DNA from: Caldifarciminota bacterium | GTDB lineage: Bacteria; Hydrothermota; UBA3072 | Length of the DNA: 40,613 nucleotides | Assembly: GCA_023131835.1 (NCBI GenBank) | Contig: JAGLZA010000088.1 | Location: forward strand, 1-40,613 | Direction of reading: 5' to 3' | In this document: piece by piece, positions 2,757-18,967 of the stretch | Layout: each line of letters begins with the position of its first letter | Position numbering within the stretch: the stretch's first letter is position 1 | The notes under the pieces: model-generated | Told to the model about the DNA's origin: nothing | Databases searched by the model: none | What the model saw: only the letters and a program-made list of their open reading frames with translations | Position numbers and translations under genes: made by a program

Positions 2757-3188
2757 TCAGCCATCCGTAGTATTTTCATCCGCCGTTCCTAATCTGGACT
2801 CAATAAAGGCGATTGCCTCATCTCTGTTATTTGAAAAGCGAATAAAGAGACCCCTGAAGTTCTCCAACCTTGAAGGAACCGGGAAAGGGCTTAAGAGAAC
2901 GCCATTTCTATCGGGATAGAAGGAGCGATACTGACTCCAATTCTTTCTTATTGTGTAAAAGACTTTCTTGATTACTATTCCATCCTTGTCAAAAAGGTAT
3001 GTGGTTTGGGAGTAATAGGGCAGGAGGGAAAGCCAGAGAATAAGTATGGTAAAGATACCATATAATGGCCCGTATAACAAATGCAAGGTCAGGGCTAATC
3101 CGAGTATAAAAATGGTGGAAAGTATTGTTTTTCTTGGATGTTCAGCAGCAGGGAAGGATACCCATTCAATCGTTGAATTCTCTGCCAT
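2757..3188 (-). CDS. Small membrane protein, PH-like (bacterial PH / YcxB type), uncertain
   Basis: 143 aa. A soluble stretch of about 20 residues is followed by two close transmembrane helices (about 21-57), then a C-terminal domain of about 80 residues starting TTYLFDKDGIVIKK. Two membrane helices followed by a 'F..dGi.i' beta-rich domain is the layout of bacterial PH-like/DUF304-type proteins, but I cannot assign a family firmly. It starts 23 bp inside the 3' end of the HIT gene and so is translationally coupled to it. It is the last gene of the endoQ-HIT operon. Its function is unknown. Confidence 0.6.
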   Translation of the reverse strand: MAENSTIEWVSFPAAEHPRKTILSTIFILGLALTLHLLYGPLYGIFTILILWLSLLPYYSQTTYLFDKDGIVIKKVFYTIRKNWSQYRSFYPDRNGVLLSPFPVPSRLENFRGLFIRFSNNRDEAIAFIESRLGTADENTTDG

Positions 3189-3657
3189 AGGTTTCCCTCA
3201 GTAAATCATATGCTTCTTCTAATGACATTGGCACAACCTTTGTTTCCCCTATCACTGGCATAAAATTAGTATCTCCACTCCACCTCGGAACAAGGTGTAT
3301 ATGAAGATGGTTTTCAATCCCTGCTCCTGCTATCCCCCCTATGTTCATCCCTATATTGAACCCCTGAGCATTCATCGCCTTCCTGATTACTAATTCCCAT
3401 CTCTTGAGATAATGCCAGAGTTCGCTTGTTGTCTCTTCTCTTAACTCCTGAAGATCTCCTGTATGTTTCTCCGGAGCAATCATTATATGTCCGTTATTAT
3501 ATGGATATATATTCATAATCACCAAAGAGTGCTCCCCACGAGAAAGAACAAAACTCTTCCTGTCATCATCCGTGGTTAAAGCCTTACAGAAGATGCATTC
3601 CTCTTTTTTGAGGTTCCTTATATACTTATAACGCCAGGGTGCATATATTTTATCCAT
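3166..3657 (-). CDS. HIT-family nucleotide hydrolase/transferase
   Basis: 163 aa from the ATG at 3657. A TTG one codon upstream is the alternative start, but ATG gives a TGATG stop/start junction with the EndoQ gene. The histidine-triad signature HLHIHLVPRW lies at about 117-126 (H117, H119, H121), and an N-terminal CIFC pair suggests the Zn-binding subset of HIT proteins. NGHIMIAPEKH (about 56-66) is the conserved strand-turn of the family. HIT proteins cleave nucleoside phosphoramidates, dinucleoside polyphosphates or nucleotidylated substrates; the length and NGH..I.P pattern fit the Ap4A-hydrolase/phosphorylase-like branch. Coupling to EndoQ suggests, but does not prove, a link with nucleotide or DNA damage metabolism. 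Confidence 0.9.
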   Translation of the reverse strand: MDKIYAPWRYKYIRNLKKEECIFCKALTTDDDRKSFVLSRGEHSLVIMNIYPYNNGHIMIAPEKHTGDLQELREETTSELWHYLKRWELVIRKAMNAQGFNIGMNIGGIAGAGIENHLHIHLVPRWSGDTNFMPVIGETKVVPMSLEEAYDLLRETYGREFND

Positions 3658-4886
3658 CAAAAGAGCGATTGTTGTTTTCTTTTTATTGATTTTTCTTTTT
3701 CTGGTATTCTTATCTTTCCAAATACTCCATCATAGCCTGGCTCTATTTCCACTTTCTCTTCTCTAACATTTATTATTGCTTCTGCAGTCCGTGTATCTGT
3801 GCTTTTTCTTATATCCTCTTCAGACACATCAAGGAGTATCTTAAACTCGCTACCAAAATATGTGGTGAGTTTCTGATAGACTCCCTGGGTCGTCTTGGCA
3901 TTCTTTCCCAATTTAAGAGAATTAGCGACAATTTCAGAAAGGGGAATTAATCGTTTATATTCGATTCGACCTTCTGAACTGGGCTTATCTCTATCAGAGA
4001 GTGAATAAACTCGATGGAGCACCCCAAGGGTAAGCGGACGACCACAAACAGGACAAATATTATTATGCTTTTTAGATTCATCTGGAGAGTATACGATTCC
4101 ACATTTTCGGTGCCCATCAAAATGATATTTGCCTTCTTCAGGAAAAAACTCTACCGTATAGAGAAATCTTTCCCTATCCTGTTTCTTCAATATCTCTCTT
4201 AATTCTTGATAATCAATAGGACCATCGAAGCAATTCGCCTCCCTTCCAATATTTCCTGGAGAATGGGCATCCGAATTGGAAACGAGGGTGATGTTGTCAA
4301 GGGAAGAGAGTAACCAGTTCATTGGAGGGTCGGAGGATAATCCTGTCTCAATAGCATAGATTTTATTACTATATTCCCCGAATGCTTCTTCGATTGAATC
4401 AAACCCGGATTTGGACCCAAACAATCCAAACCAGGGTGTCCACAAGTGCGCAGGGATCAATATTGCATCTTCTTCGATAGAAAAAAGCACCCCGGCAAGA
4501 TCTATAAGGTTGATAGATAAGATAGGCCTACCATCGGATTCCAGACTACCGAATCTTCGTATCTCTTTGTTGAATTTCTTGACCAGTTCAAAATTCGGGA
4601 GTATTATAAGCGAATGGACCTTCTTTGTTTCTCCGTTATAATTAAATATGTTACAAACCTCTGTGGTCAATATAAAATCAACCCCTCTATATTGATAGAT
4701 TCCATTCCTTTCAGGCTTTAGATGTTTCTCTAATTCGTATAACCAGGCTGGATTTGTAAAATCTCCGGTTCCCATAAGGTTTATTCCTTTCCTCTTAGCA
4801 GCCTCGGTAATATTATCCAGATCCAGAAATTTACTGGTAGCTCTCGAGTATTTAGAATGAATATGAAGGTCTGCGTAGTAATTCAT
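3657..4886 (-). CDS. endoQ: Endonuclease Q (EndoQ), PHP-domain DNA repair nuclease
   Basis: 409 aa from the ATG at 4886; a TTG 24 bp upstream would add eight residues but lies between the promoter -10 box and the ATG. The PHP-domain metal motifs are ADLHIHSKYS (5-14), PAHLWTPWFG (145-154) and SNSDAHSP (203-210). A zinc-ribbon-like part follows, with C262, C278 and C281 (H259 nearby). This is the layout of EndoQ (formerly TIGR00375), which nicks DNA 5' of hypoxanthine, uracil or abasic sites. EndoQ is mainly archaeal with scattered bacterial members. The last five residues, QQSLF, fit the bacterial beta-clamp binding consensus QL(S/D)LF. It is the first gene of a three-gene operon, with a TTGACA-16-TATTAT promoter and only 12 nt between the -10 box and the ATG. 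Confidence 0.88.
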   Translation of the reverse strand: MNYYADLHIHSKYSRATSKFLDLDNITEAAKRKGINLMGTGDFTNPAWLYELEKHLKPERNGIYQYRGVDFILTTEVCNIFNYNGETKKVHSLIILPNFELVKKFNKEIRRFGSLESDGRPILSINLIDLAGVLFSIEEDAILIPAHLWTPWFGLFGSKSGFDSIEEAFGEYSNKIYAIETGLSSDPPMNWLLSSLDNITLVSNSDAHSPGNIGREANCFDGPIDYQELREILKKQDRERFLYTVEFFPEEGKYHFDGHRKCGIVYSPDESKKHNNICPVCGRPLTLGVLHRVYSLSDRDKPSSEGRIEYKRLIPLSEIVANSLKLGKNAKTTQGVYQKLTTYFGSEFKILLDVSEEDIRKSTDTRTAEAIINVREEKVEIEPGYDGVFGKIRIPEKEKSIKRKQQSLF

Positions 4887-4926: not shown

Positions 4927-5213
4927 GACCAATTTTTTCACCCTACCCCCTTTTTTCACCACAGAGGACACAGAGGACTAAAGAGCCCAACCACTCCCCT
5001 TTAATTTTAGGTGTTTTAGAGTACACAGAGAAGAAATAAAATTGGGTAGCGAAACTTGTTTCGCGTCCTGTTAGATAATTTCTTTATCTATCTGGGTAAA
5101 CGCCCCGTAGGGACTTGATTCATCAAGCCCAAATATCGCAGAGCAAACTTTGCTACTCCGAAAAGGCCAAATCGCGGTTTTAGAAACCGCTCCTATAATG
5201 TAGTCTCAGTACA
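4927..5213. repeat. Intergenic repeat tract
   Basis: No gene seen. The tract holds 'caccacagaggacacagagga' (about 4950), GTTAGATAATTTC-TTTATCTA (about 5068-5089) and 'cgtagggacttgattcatcaagccc' (about 5106-5130). It also holds a degenerate CGCAGAGCAAACTTTGCTAC (about 5139-5158) and the palindrome GCGGTTTTAGAAACCGC (5174-5190). The same modules recur in the same order at 18790-18930. It ends next to the stop codon of plsY at 5217. Confidence 0.7.
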
Positions 5214-5216
5214 CCC

Positions 5217-5795
5217 TTAGAATAAAGATGGCTCTTCACCCCTTATGAGTCGTTTAATATTGGAACGATGTGTAATAAATATACCAACAGGTAATAAAAT
5301 GGCGAGAATAAGCACTGGGATTGATACAGAATCCGTTAAAAAGAAATAGAGAAGAGGGAGTGCAAGTGCTCCTCCAAGGGACCCGATTGACACCCTTCTC
5401 GTTATCAAAATCAGAACACCCCATATTCCAAAACTGCAAAGTGCAGGAACAGGCATAAGAGCCAGAACACCACCAAAACCTGTTGCTATTCCTTTCCCAC
5501 CCCTGAATCCAAGAAAGGGCGTTGTGACATGTCCGAGCACAGCACCCAAAACTGCTACAATACCAATAACAGGGGATACCAGGGAAAAATATATAACGGG
5601 TATAAATCCCTTCAAGAGGTCAAGAATAAAAACCAGAATCCCTTCCTTCTTTCCCACTACTCTCATAACATTGGTAGCACCTATATTGCCACTTCCTTCC
5701 TCCCTTAGATTATATCCCTTGATACGCCCCACAATGTATCCGAATGGCAAACTACCAAGTATATAAGAACCAAGAAAGGCAACTAAATACCACAT
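5217..5795 (-). CDS. plsY: Glycerol-3-phosphate acyltransferase PlsY
   Basis: 192 aa integral membrane acyltransferase that moves the acyl group of acyl-phosphate to glycerol-3-phosphate, the first step of phospholipid synthesis. Visible family motifs are GSLPFGYIVGRI (14-25), REEGSGNIGATNVMR (31-45), the loop GHVTTPFLGFRGGKGIATG (about 88-106) and several hydrophobic helices. Length is typical. AAGGAGGTAAAATAATG gives a strong ribosome binding site. It lies 33 bp after der, as the last gene of the DUF512-der-plsY operon, an order also seen in Firmicutes, where gpsA often follows; gpsA is absent here. Confidence 0.95.
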   Translation of the reverse strand: MWYLVAFLGSYILGSLPFGYIVGRIKGYNLREEGSGNIGATNVMRVVGKKEGILVFILDLLKGFIPVIYFSLVSPVIGIVAVLGAVLGHVTTPFLGFRGGKGIATGFGGVLALMPVPALCSFGIWGVLILITRRVSIGSLGGALALPLLYFFLTDSVSIPVLILAILLPVGIFITHRSNIKRLIRGEEPSLF

Positions 5796-8382: not shown

Positions 8383-8850
8383 TATAGTCACTTCGCTCCA
8401 ATGAAAATTGAAGAATGGAAAATGATTTTCACCACAAAGACACAGAGGACACAGAGAAAATAATGTGTTGGTCAGTCAGTCTGTTAGTGAGTTGGTGGGT
8501 AGAGGGCAAGATATATCTTGTCCGTTTGTAGAGGTTCGATTTATCGAACCCGAATAACGCAGAGCAAGCTCTGCCACTACAGAAAGGATATCATTGCGAA
8601 CAATGACATTGTTCGCAATGACTATTTGCTGAGTTTATTGGGTTTGTTAGGTTCGTCCCTAATTAACCATTTAACCATTCAGCTATTTAACTATTTCTCA
8701 ATGGAGCGAAGCGACTATCTCAGCGTTCATCAGCGGTTAAAAAAAGTGGAGTGGTAGTGTGCTCTTCTCTCTCTGAATTACAAAAATTTAGGGTGGTGAT
8801 GGGCTTTGTGTCCTTTGTGTCTTTGTGGTGAAATAAAGAGGGGTGGGAGG
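8383..8850. repeat. Intergenic repeat tract between divergent operons
   Basis: No gene seen. It starts with ATAGTCACTTCGCTCCAATG (8384-8403), a one-base variant of the dispersed element, and carries an inverted copy near 8699-8720. Between them lie 'caccacaaagacacagaggacac' (about 8430), the palindrome GGGCAAGATATATCTTGTCC (8504-8523), a GGTTCGATTTATCGAACC stem (about 8532-8549), CGCAGAGCAAGCTCTGCCAC (8560-8579) and 'cattgcgaacaatgacattg' (about 8593-8612). An inverted 'gtgtcctttgtgtctttgtggtg' lies at about 8809-8830. The module text at about 8460-8580 nearly repeats 568-686. Confidence 0.75.
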
Positions 8851-13727: not shown

Positions 13728-14173
13728 AGATAGTAGGCGTTATTGGTGGCTCATCTGCACCTGATGATATCTCTCAGATAGCATACAAGATGGGGAAATT
13801 GATAGGTGAGAGAGGATATGTCCTCATATCCGGAGGACTGGGTGGGGTGATGGAGGCTGCATCAAGAGGAGCAAAGGAGGCAGGAGGAATAGTAATTGGC
13901 ATTCTCCCGGGTAATTCACGAGATACTGCTAACAGATGGGTTGACATCCCAATCGTTACAGGGATGAGTCATGCCAGGAATGTAATAATCACTCAGACAG
14001 CCGATATCCTTATAGCAATAGACGGAAGGGTTGGAACTCAGAGTGAAATCGCCTTTGGGCATATATACAGGAAGAAGATAATAGGGATCAGATGCAATAT
14101 TCCACTTCCCCACATTAAAGTATCTACTCCGGAAGAAGCAATATCCCTGGTTGACGAATATTTCGGTGAATAG
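13724..14173 (+). CDS. LOG-family (SLOG, TIGR00725) nucleotide-binding protein
   Basis: 149 aa. GVIGGSS near the N terminus, SGGLGGVMEAASRGA (about 36-50) and DGRVGTQSEIAFG (about 100-112) are the nucleotide-binding loops of the short TIGR00725 branch of the SLOG/LOG superfamily, once annotated as lysine decarboxylase-like. Relatives include cytokinin-riboside phosphoribohydrolases and Mo-cofactor carrier proteins; the substrate here is unknown. The start overlaps the porU stop (ATGA). Its last 201 bp (13964-14164) recur almost exactly at 18469-18669, so its C-terminal end (YFGE) may have been replaced by a recombination event. Confidence 0.85.
   Translation: MKIVGVIGGSSAPDDISQIAYKMGKLIGERGYVLISGGLGGVMEAASRGAKEAGGIVIGILPGNSRDTANRWVDIPIVTGMSHARNVIITQTADILIAIDGRVGTQSEIAFGHIYRKKIIGIRCNIPLPHIKVSTPEEAISLVDEYFGE
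13964..14164 (+). repeat. Left copy of 201-bp direct repeat (3' part of LOG gene)
   Basis: Reading base by base, this block matches 18469-18669 with two differences, both near the right end: gcaatAtcc versus gcaatCtcc, and gttgaCgaa versus gttgaTgaa. Just outside the block the flanks diverge at once, with GGGATG versus GGAATG on the left and TTTCGGTGAA versus TTTCAGAATT on the right. The copies are 4505 bp apart in direct orientation. Confidence 0.97.
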
Positions 14174-18445: not shown

Positions 18446-18468
18446 GCAGATGGTAAGACTGTTTAGGA

Positions 18469-18669
18469 ATGAGTCATGCCAGGAATGTAATAATCACTCA
18501 GACAGCCGATATCCTTATAGCAATAGACGGAAGGGTTGGAACTCAGAGTGAAATCGCCTTTGGGCATATATACAGGAAGAAGATAATAGGGATCAGATGC
18601 AATATTCCACTTCCCCACATTAAAGTATCTACTCCGGAAGAAGCAATCTCCCTGGTTGATGAATATTTC
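18469..18669 (+). repeat. Right copy of 201-bp direct repeat
   Basis: Near-identical copy (two differences) of 13964-14164, the 3' part of the LOG gene, in direct orientation and after two T9SS cargo genes. The left flank (18286-18468) has no match to the LOG gene. Confidence 0.97.
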
Positions 18670-18714: not shown

Positions 18715-18967
18715 TCACAAATTCTCACGTAAAACAGCAAAAGGGCATAGGATTAACGAATAAGGGTAATTCATGAATTACCCCTACAAGCCCGCCCCGT
18801 TAGATAATTTCTTTATCTAACGGGGTAAACGCCCTGTAGGGGCTTGATTCATCAAGCCTGAATAACGCAGAGTAAGCTCTGCTACTCCGAAATTGGGGGT
18901 ATCGCGGTTTGGAAACCGCTCCTACAATGCGTGAAGAACGAAGGGCGTGATAAATCACGCCCCTACA
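18715..18967. repeat. Palindrome-rich repeat tract
   Basis: No gene seen. It holds consecutive palindromes: GGGTAATTCATGAATTACCC (18764-18783), a perfect 13-bp stem around TTTCT (18795-18825, arms CCCCGTTAGATAA and TTATCTAACGGGG), 'ggggcttgattcatcaagcc' (about 18839-18858) and CGCAGAGTAAGCTCTGCTAC (about 18866-18885). These are followed by GCGGTTTGGAAACCGC (about 18904-18919) and GGGCGTGATAAATCACGCCC (18943-18962). Several are followed by CCTAC or preceded by GTAGG. The last lies 8 bp from the stop codon of the hydrolase gene at 18971 and could fold at its mRNA 3' end. Confidence 0.8.

Follow-up and report, generated by a model that had tools for sequence, protein, structure and literature searches.

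A bacterial endonuclease Q ending in a peptide of the beta-clamp-binding type, and a related fusion of endonuclease Q with a UvrD-type helicase

The window analysed in this work, a stretch of 40,613 nucleotides from a bacterium of candidate division WOR-3, carries an endonuclease Q (EndoQ) gene whose product ends in QQSLF, and it raises the question of whether this short tail attaches the enzyme to the bacterial sliding clamp, DnaN. A first-pass annotation had placed the open reading frame at 3657-4886 and read its last residues as QQSLF, and both the coordinates and the terminal residues are as claimed. The gene (3657..4886, minus strand) starts with an ATG at 4886, stops with a TGA at 3657-3659 and encodes a PHP-type endonuclease Q of 409 amino acids with a C-terminal clamp-type peptide, the final residues being KRKQQSLF. 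A TTG eight codons upstream of the ATG is a possible alternative start; the ATG agrees with the N termini of homologues. The codons of the terminal peptide occupy 3660..3674 (minus strand), and its assignment to the beta-clamp-binding type is based on its sequence, its conservation and a comparison with DnaE. The linker from the EndoQ core to the peptide (approximately residues 394-404; 3675..3707, minus strand) is variable and modelled with low confidence, residues 399-404 having a pLDDT below 50.

The identity of the protein as EndoQ, proposed in the same annotation, is upheld by its similarity to PfuEndoQ, by its predicted fold and by aligned catalytic residues. A phmmer comparison with PfuEndoQ (5zb8) gave E=6e-69 over residues 5-398. 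The match to TIGR00375 (E=9e-59, 199.7 bits) is below the model cut-off of 326.6, but this value is the naming threshold of a 'hypoth_equivalog' model and carries no functional criterion, so that it was not counted as a defining feature of EndoQ; the model matches in three of 14 control genomes, exceeding the cut-off in two, and two EndoQ–helicase fusions that were examined also score below it. The window EndoQ has no match in Pfam and none in PADLOC. Its AlphaFold model has a pLDDT of 92.2, and the best Foldseek matches are the chains of PfuEndoQ 5zb8 (TM 0.87-0.88) and 7k30 (TM 0.85); in the tail the mean pLDDT of the last residue block is 48, and 399-404 is the sole segment below 50. The catalytic zinc ligands of PfuEndoQ are Glu76, His84 and His139, as given in the available part of PMC8307549, and they correspond to Glu76 (4659..4661), His91 (4614..4616) and His147 (4446..4448) of the window protein. 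Asp206 (4269..4271) aligns with an Asp in 5zb8 and with an Asn in 7k30_A (SNSNAHS). All four codons are on the minus strand, and the four residues show no variation across the 24 aligned homologues. Sequence and model together point to a complete, functional-looking bacterial endonuclease Q.

The gene is followed by two others on the minus strand. The ATG of a HIT-family nucleotide-binding protein gene (3166..3657; PF01230) overlaps the endoQ stop codon (TGATG), which agrees with the HIT neighbour reported at first pass, and the end of the HIT gene is in turn overlapped by a gene for a 143-amino-acid protein (2757..3188), a membrane protein by eye. These two overlaps make it likely that the three genes form an operon. 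The label 'PH-like' for the 143-amino-acid protein is unproven: the protein has no match in Pfam or NCBIfam, and falls in a cluster of 17 similar neighbours, two genes downstream of endoQ, that includes the window's own. The overlap with the HIT start was considered as a cause of tail conservation and ruled out, since a single shared base does not fix the peptide sequence. Members of the HIT cluster are neighbours of endoQ in 47 WOR-3 loci, and the HIT protein of the window matches the ThsC HIT model of PADLOC (E=1.4e-10). The other neighbours are named by eye. In 65 WOR-3 loci a SAM-methyltransferase gene precedes endoQ, the median overlap being one base; an IMP dehydrogenase-like gene occurs two genes upstream in 22 loci and a MutL-like gene directly upstream in five. 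In L148 and other loci of the wider scan described below, EndoQ is near dihydroorotase-like and aspartate carbamoyltransferase-like genes of pyrimidine synthesis (17 and 9 loci, respectively). IMP dehydrogenase and EndoQ are both concerned with hypoxanthine/xanthine chemistry. Dispersed direct repeats are also present in the window (13960-14164 / 18465-18669, 205 nt, 99%; 539-688 / 8431-8580, 150 nt, 91%; 5064-5163 / 18793-18892, 100 nt, 88%), together with several short TAGTCGCTTCGCTC-like elements.

EndoQ was found in 114 of the 147 genomes of the window's phylum, and tails were taken from all 114 loci, one of which (L114) shows the N terminus only, leaving 113 with a visible C terminus. The absence of the peptide from relatives had been named beforehand as a finding that would speak against a clamp-binding role; its conservation is strong, with Q-x-x-L-[FW] close to the C terminus in 102 of 113 WOR-3 EndoQs, a count that includes L009, where the contig stops directly after QLELF, and L099, a gene with an internal stop whose C-terminal half ends QLSLF. 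The 11 proteins that lack the motif end in ERRGLF (L008), GELTLF (L028), DGLLF (L021, L059) or PLLW(Q) (L035, L047), or are tail-less (L107-L111). These last five form family f5, in which EndoQ evolves fast, is about 40% identical to that of the window, and is shortened and tail-less in 5/5 cases, with an apparently unstable position in the tree; their genomes do have DnaN. In 101 WOR-3 rows, the motif has Q in 101, L at position 4 in 101 and F in 100, and position 2 is L in 53, M in 32, Q in 5, K in 4, I in 4, G in 2 and N in 1. The linker ahead of it ranges from 11 to 47 residues, and the tail is kept although the genes flanking endoQ vary among loci. A conserved peptide behind a variable linker resembles a tethered docking motif.

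Short motifs can arise by chance, and one could argue that QQSLF is a random C terminus; PlsY (glycerol-3-phosphate acyltransferase; 5217-5795), also encoded in this window, has the ending PSLF, which lacks a Gln and indicates that an LF ending alone carries no meaning. However, set against the 102 of 113 homologues are none of 630 other ORFs of at least 100 amino acids on the same WOR-3 loci (the sole match among 631 being the EndoQ half in L099) and only 13 of 112,000 shuffled tails that fit the strict form of the motif, and, among homologues whose tail is visible, the four closest (68-77% identity) end in QQSLF, QQSLF, QKTLF and QQSLF. Chance is thus already refuted for the family, and for the window's own tail it is scarcely credible. 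A genome-wide search with the DNA pattern for Q-x-x-[LF]-F-stop was discarded as too unspecific (177 matches versus 114 for the reversed control).

Whether QQSLF suits the clamp of its own host is a separate matter. DnaN was found in 128 of the 147 genomes of the phylum, and in the window's genome it is G000:C521. In an alignment with E. coli DnaN it is identical at 7 and different at 11 of the 18 positions that we take to line the peptide-binding pocket, so that the peptide preference of the E. coli clamp need not hold for this one. The weak beta-clamp consensus is QLxLF (PMC4549789, in the part available), and the fit to it proposed at first pass holds up at the level of sequence: Q, L and F are present, though position 2 is not Leu and departs from the preferred L/M. 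DnaE offers a comparison from the same genomes, and its clamp site was aligned for 24 of them. In the window's family the site reads MQSLF (G125, G126), METLF (G127), MGSLF (G128) and MGTLF (G129), in the window's own genome MPSLY, and elsewhere in the phylum QASLF, QISLF, QMALF, QTNLF, QQTLF, QKGLF, QLGLF and others. Sites with a polar position 2 suggest that polar residues are tolerated there in WOR-3, and in G125 and G126 an EndoQ ending in QQSLF stands beside a DnaE site MQSLF, a close match. DinB was dropped as a calibrator: it mostly lacks a terminal motif, and two frames carry QKRLF or QKSLF. The accessible text of PMC4549789 also states that clamp peptides can bind across domains, so that the type of tail is by itself no proof of specificity.

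The polar position 2 admits another explanation, namely that the tail is a clamp peptide in the family at large but is decaying in the window's lineage, where EndoQ would be largely clamp-independent. L or M occupies position 2 in 85 of 101 WOR-3 motifs, yet every one of the six motif-bearing rows of the window's family and class has Q, K or N there; degenerate tails occur in sister groups (ERRGLF, DGLLF, GELTLF) and full loss in f5, and in the first of the two trees described below the tails of sister rows that share the window's starred set are degenerate or missing. Against decay, four of five family members with a visible tail have QQSLF and the fifth, QKTLF, retains Q, L and F at 68-77% identity, while DnaE of the same family likewise has a polar position 2. 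We consider decay unlikely.

The first-pass annotation had drawn a parallel with the PCNA-interacting peptide of archaeal EndoQ, and the comparison of tails bears it out as far as sequences can. EndoQ-profile matches occur in 127 of 156 genomes of one archaeal phylum, a few of them weak (near E=5e-4); this is the phylum of G147, the Aenigmatarchaeota genome of locus L219, which encodes PCNA (PF00705, E=1.6e-18), whereas PF00705 was not found in G148 and G149. Tails were collected from 70 loci of this phylum (the 30 best and 40 chosen down the list). At the same position behind the core, 58 of 70 have a PIP box, Q-x-x-[hydrophobic]-x-x-[FYW] (QKSLSDF, QKNLKEFL, QKTIFDF), and none has a beta-only motif, three of the 58 fitting the beta pattern as well; the remaining 12 comprise eight PIP-like tails without Gln (e.g. 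ESSLNKFL) and four that are tail-less or at a contig edge. Among motif-bearing bacterial rows, 209 are beta-only, six fit both patterns and one (L334) is PIP-only, which is a chance match of the pattern. On a tree built without the tail columns the type of tail changes once. The division into archaeal and bacterial rows takes a single change in a first tree of 134 rows (SH-aLRT 99) and two changes in a cleaned tree (131 rows, intein-bearing rows removed). The window's neighbourhood is placed differently in the two trees, probably because of the long tail-less f5 branch. The single change means that the contrast between beta-type and PIP-type tails amounts to one evolutionary event, well conserved on both sides, rather than to many independent ones, and the distribution, beta-type in bacteria and PIP box in the sampled archaeal phylum, indicates that the tail matches the resident clamp. 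Within a single enzyme family, the two types of tail make a compact example of a peptide that matches the clamp of its host. The archaeal L219 protein, 51% identical to the window EndoQ and with a PIP-like tail, had prompted the idea that the gene was transferred horizontally and its tail repeatedly re-tuned; as the tail type changes once on the tree, this idea was dropped as unproven. Two side observations concern the archaeal loci. In L321, L322 and L323, EndoQ contains intein-like inserts of about 390-415 residues, at PAH/C...HN/CWTPW, immediately after the zinc-binding His of the catalytic site; and a dCTP deaminase-like ORF (by eye) at L219:3408-3923 (minus strand) is divergent from the archaeal EndoQ, a possible link with uracil avoidance.

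The tail is not confined to WOR-3. A GTDB-wide scan of genome contigs returned at least 593 stretches encoding EndoQ relatives, and the best 80 of these at least 593 come from Omnitrophota, Patescibacteria, Deltaproteobacteria, Nitrospirae, Gemmatimonadetes and others, with one archaeon; they comprise two fusions and 78 unfused proteins, 77 of them bacterial and one archaeal. The motif is present in 63 of the 77 unfused bacterial EndoQs of this best-80 set, with the contig end L178 scored as a miss; the set overlaps the WOR-3 loci, since at least L145, L147, L160, L166 and L176 look like the same genes by their tails. In the phylum of L201, which includes the Desulfobacteraceae, EndoQ matches occur in 198 of 297 genomes and the motif in 29 of 36 unfused EndoQs fetched; three related genes of this phylum (L263, L271, L272) have an early stop just ahead of the tail. 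The survey of bacterial C termini that had been suggested therefore speaks for the peptide in all three samples (102/113, 63/77 and 29/36), and the five tail-less WOR-3 EndoQs, the three truncated ones and the degenerate tails argue against its strict necessity. The same annotation had also described EndoQ as mainly archaeal in distribution; this does not stand, given EndoQ in 114/147 WOR-3 genomes and 198/297 genomes of the Desulfobacteraceae-bearing phylum. PMC8438529, in its available part, limits EndoQ to Euryarchaea and a few bacteria. An origin from mobile elements was considered and rejected, as no EndoQ relative was found in viral contigs or, with the archaeal L219 protein as query, in plasmids.

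Two of the related loci, L201 (4001-7411) and L214 (4001-7297), encode long proteins in which an N-terminal EndoQ is followed by a complete UvrD/REP helicase (PF00580, PF13361). In the phylum of L201 at least 47 genomes have EndoQ matches in frames of at least 900 amino acids, and 34 of these, picked for long frames, were fetched (L327-L360), which with L201 and L214 makes 36 fusions examined. All 36 match the L201 helicase, at E values no higher than 1.5e-48. Q-x-x-[LMIV]-[FW] stands directly behind the EndoQ core, at residues 419-425, in 22 of the 36, and a second such motif behind the helicase in 33, the other three having QLKFF, QLSFF and QLGLL at this place. The terminal motif is absent from the 30 closest unfused UvrD-type helicases fetched from WOR-3 (two frames being cut by contig ends) and from 14 of 14 unfused UvrD-type helicases of 14 fusion-bearing genomes, and these 44 of 44 indicate that the second motif goes with the fusion. 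A role in defence was also considered; in PADLOC the helicase portion has matches to GajB and to further UvrD-type models, which might be expected of any UvrD.

The fusions also bear on an explanation in which conservation of the tail has nothing to do with clamp binding: the tail could pack on EndoQ itself or on another copy, or be recognised as a tag by a protease or some other partner. Functions of this kind are possible for terminal peptides, and the low model confidence for the tail does not exclude docking in an assembly. Nevertheless, a linker of 11 to 47 residues does not resemble an intramolecular latch, the sequence of the motif agrees with the known clamp consensus and a PIP box takes its place in an archaeal phylum, and a degradation tag would hardly be kept internally, as the motif is in 22/36 fusions, or recur behind the helicase, as in 33/36. 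We regard such other roles as improbable. In our judgement it is very likely that the interpretation of QQSLF as a clamp tail is right, and that the window encodes an EndoQ which its tail tethers to DnaN.

We read the fusion as a putative clamp-anchored nick-and-unwind repair enzyme. UvrD-type helicases move 3'-to-5', and a helicase moving in this direction on the intact strand from the EndoQ nick would displace exactly the lesion-bearing strand; the two clamp peptides could each fill one of the two pockets of a clamp dimer, and the clamp would keep a polymerase at hand during unwinding. More broadly, we lean slightly towards a bacterial, clamp-organised, glycosylase-free deamination repair built on EndoQ, condensed into an EndoQ–UvrD/PcrA fusion, often with two beta-clamp peptides, in many genomes of the Desulfobacteraceae-bearing phylum and in a Gemmatimonadetes MAG. 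If this is true, the fusion would supply the missing step after EndoQ incision, in parallel to MutL–UvrD in mismatch repair; in any case it names a candidate for that step, for which PMC8438529, in the part available, postulates a helicase with FEN1. No report of an EndoQ–UvrD fusion was found in the open-licence literature, including the accessible parts of PMC7776575 and PMC8307549.

For the window EndoQ itself, the proposed arrangement is a core with the zinc-ligand residues, a short disordered linker and the terminal peptide QQSLF. The peptide would dock in the hydrophobic pocket of the host DnaN, docking would keep EndoQ at replication and repair sites, and the clamp would probably stimulate the enzyme, much as the Thermococcales enzyme is stimulated by PCNA. 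EndoQ would then nick 5' of a uracil, hypoxanthine, xanthine or abasic site, and the lesion-bearing strand would be displaced and resynthesised at the clamp. Incision 5' of these four lesions is established for PfuEndoQ and is reported for the Bacillus pumilus enzyme (PMC8307549, PMC8438529, each in part), whose activity on dU, dI and AP sites is cited in the available parts of PMC6202378 and PMC8438529. The tail offers a direct and cheap test of how EndoQ reaches its sites. The presence of EndoQ in most genomes of two bacterial phyla suggests that uncultured bacteria may commonly repair deaminated DNA with no glycosylase involved.

The core of this interpretation is already in the literature. 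Shiraishi et al. (2016; PMC4858679, in the part available) report that Tko EndoQ binds PCNA through its PIP box with a KD of 55 nM, that binding is lost without the tail and that PCNA stimulates the enzyme; they give the PfuEndoQ and TkoEndoQ tails as QRSITEFL and QRTLLQYI, and remark that beta-clamp consensus sequences are found in bacterial EndoQ C termini, so that the inference of a clamp tail is not new. What is added here is the counted conservation, the comparison with DnaE and the fusion with two clamp motifs. No report of EndoQ binding to DnaN was found in the open-licence literature, which omits most subscription papers.

Among known systems, the UvrD/PcrA/Rep helicases resemble the fused domain, for which PcrA (TIGR01073) is the best-scoring NCBIfam model; the fused domain differs from them in that it scores far below the equivalog cut-off, lies behind EndoQ and ends in a clamp-type motif that the 44 unfused UvrD-type helicases examined lack. 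The bacterial EndoQ homologues, including that of Bacillus pumilus, share with the window's protein a C-terminal beta-clamp consensus, according to the available part of PMC4858679; in contrast with them, the window's comes from another phylum, and its tail is considered here with counted conservation, controls and DnaE of the same genomes. An EndoQ homologue is also reported for Bacillus subtilis 168. The Thermococcales enzymes PfuEndoQ and TkoEndoQ have the same family, fold and catalytic residues and a terminal clamp-type peptide behind the core, whereas the window's peptide is of the beta type (QQSLF) in a bacterial host with DnaN, binding having been measured for the archaeal proteins only. 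NucS/EndoMS differs from EndoQ in its unrelated fold, in its mismatch specificity and in being found, among bacteria, mainly in Actinobacteria. Like EndoQ, it is an endonuclease found in both archaea and bacteria, and its C-terminal peptide varies with the clamp of the host, being a PIP box or, in Actinobacteria, a DnaN-type peptide, [E/K][L/Y][T/R]LF, that is needed for DnaN binding (PMC8228993, in the part available). NucS is thus the closest precedent for a single endonuclease whose tail is of the PIP type in archaea and of the DnaN type in bacteria.
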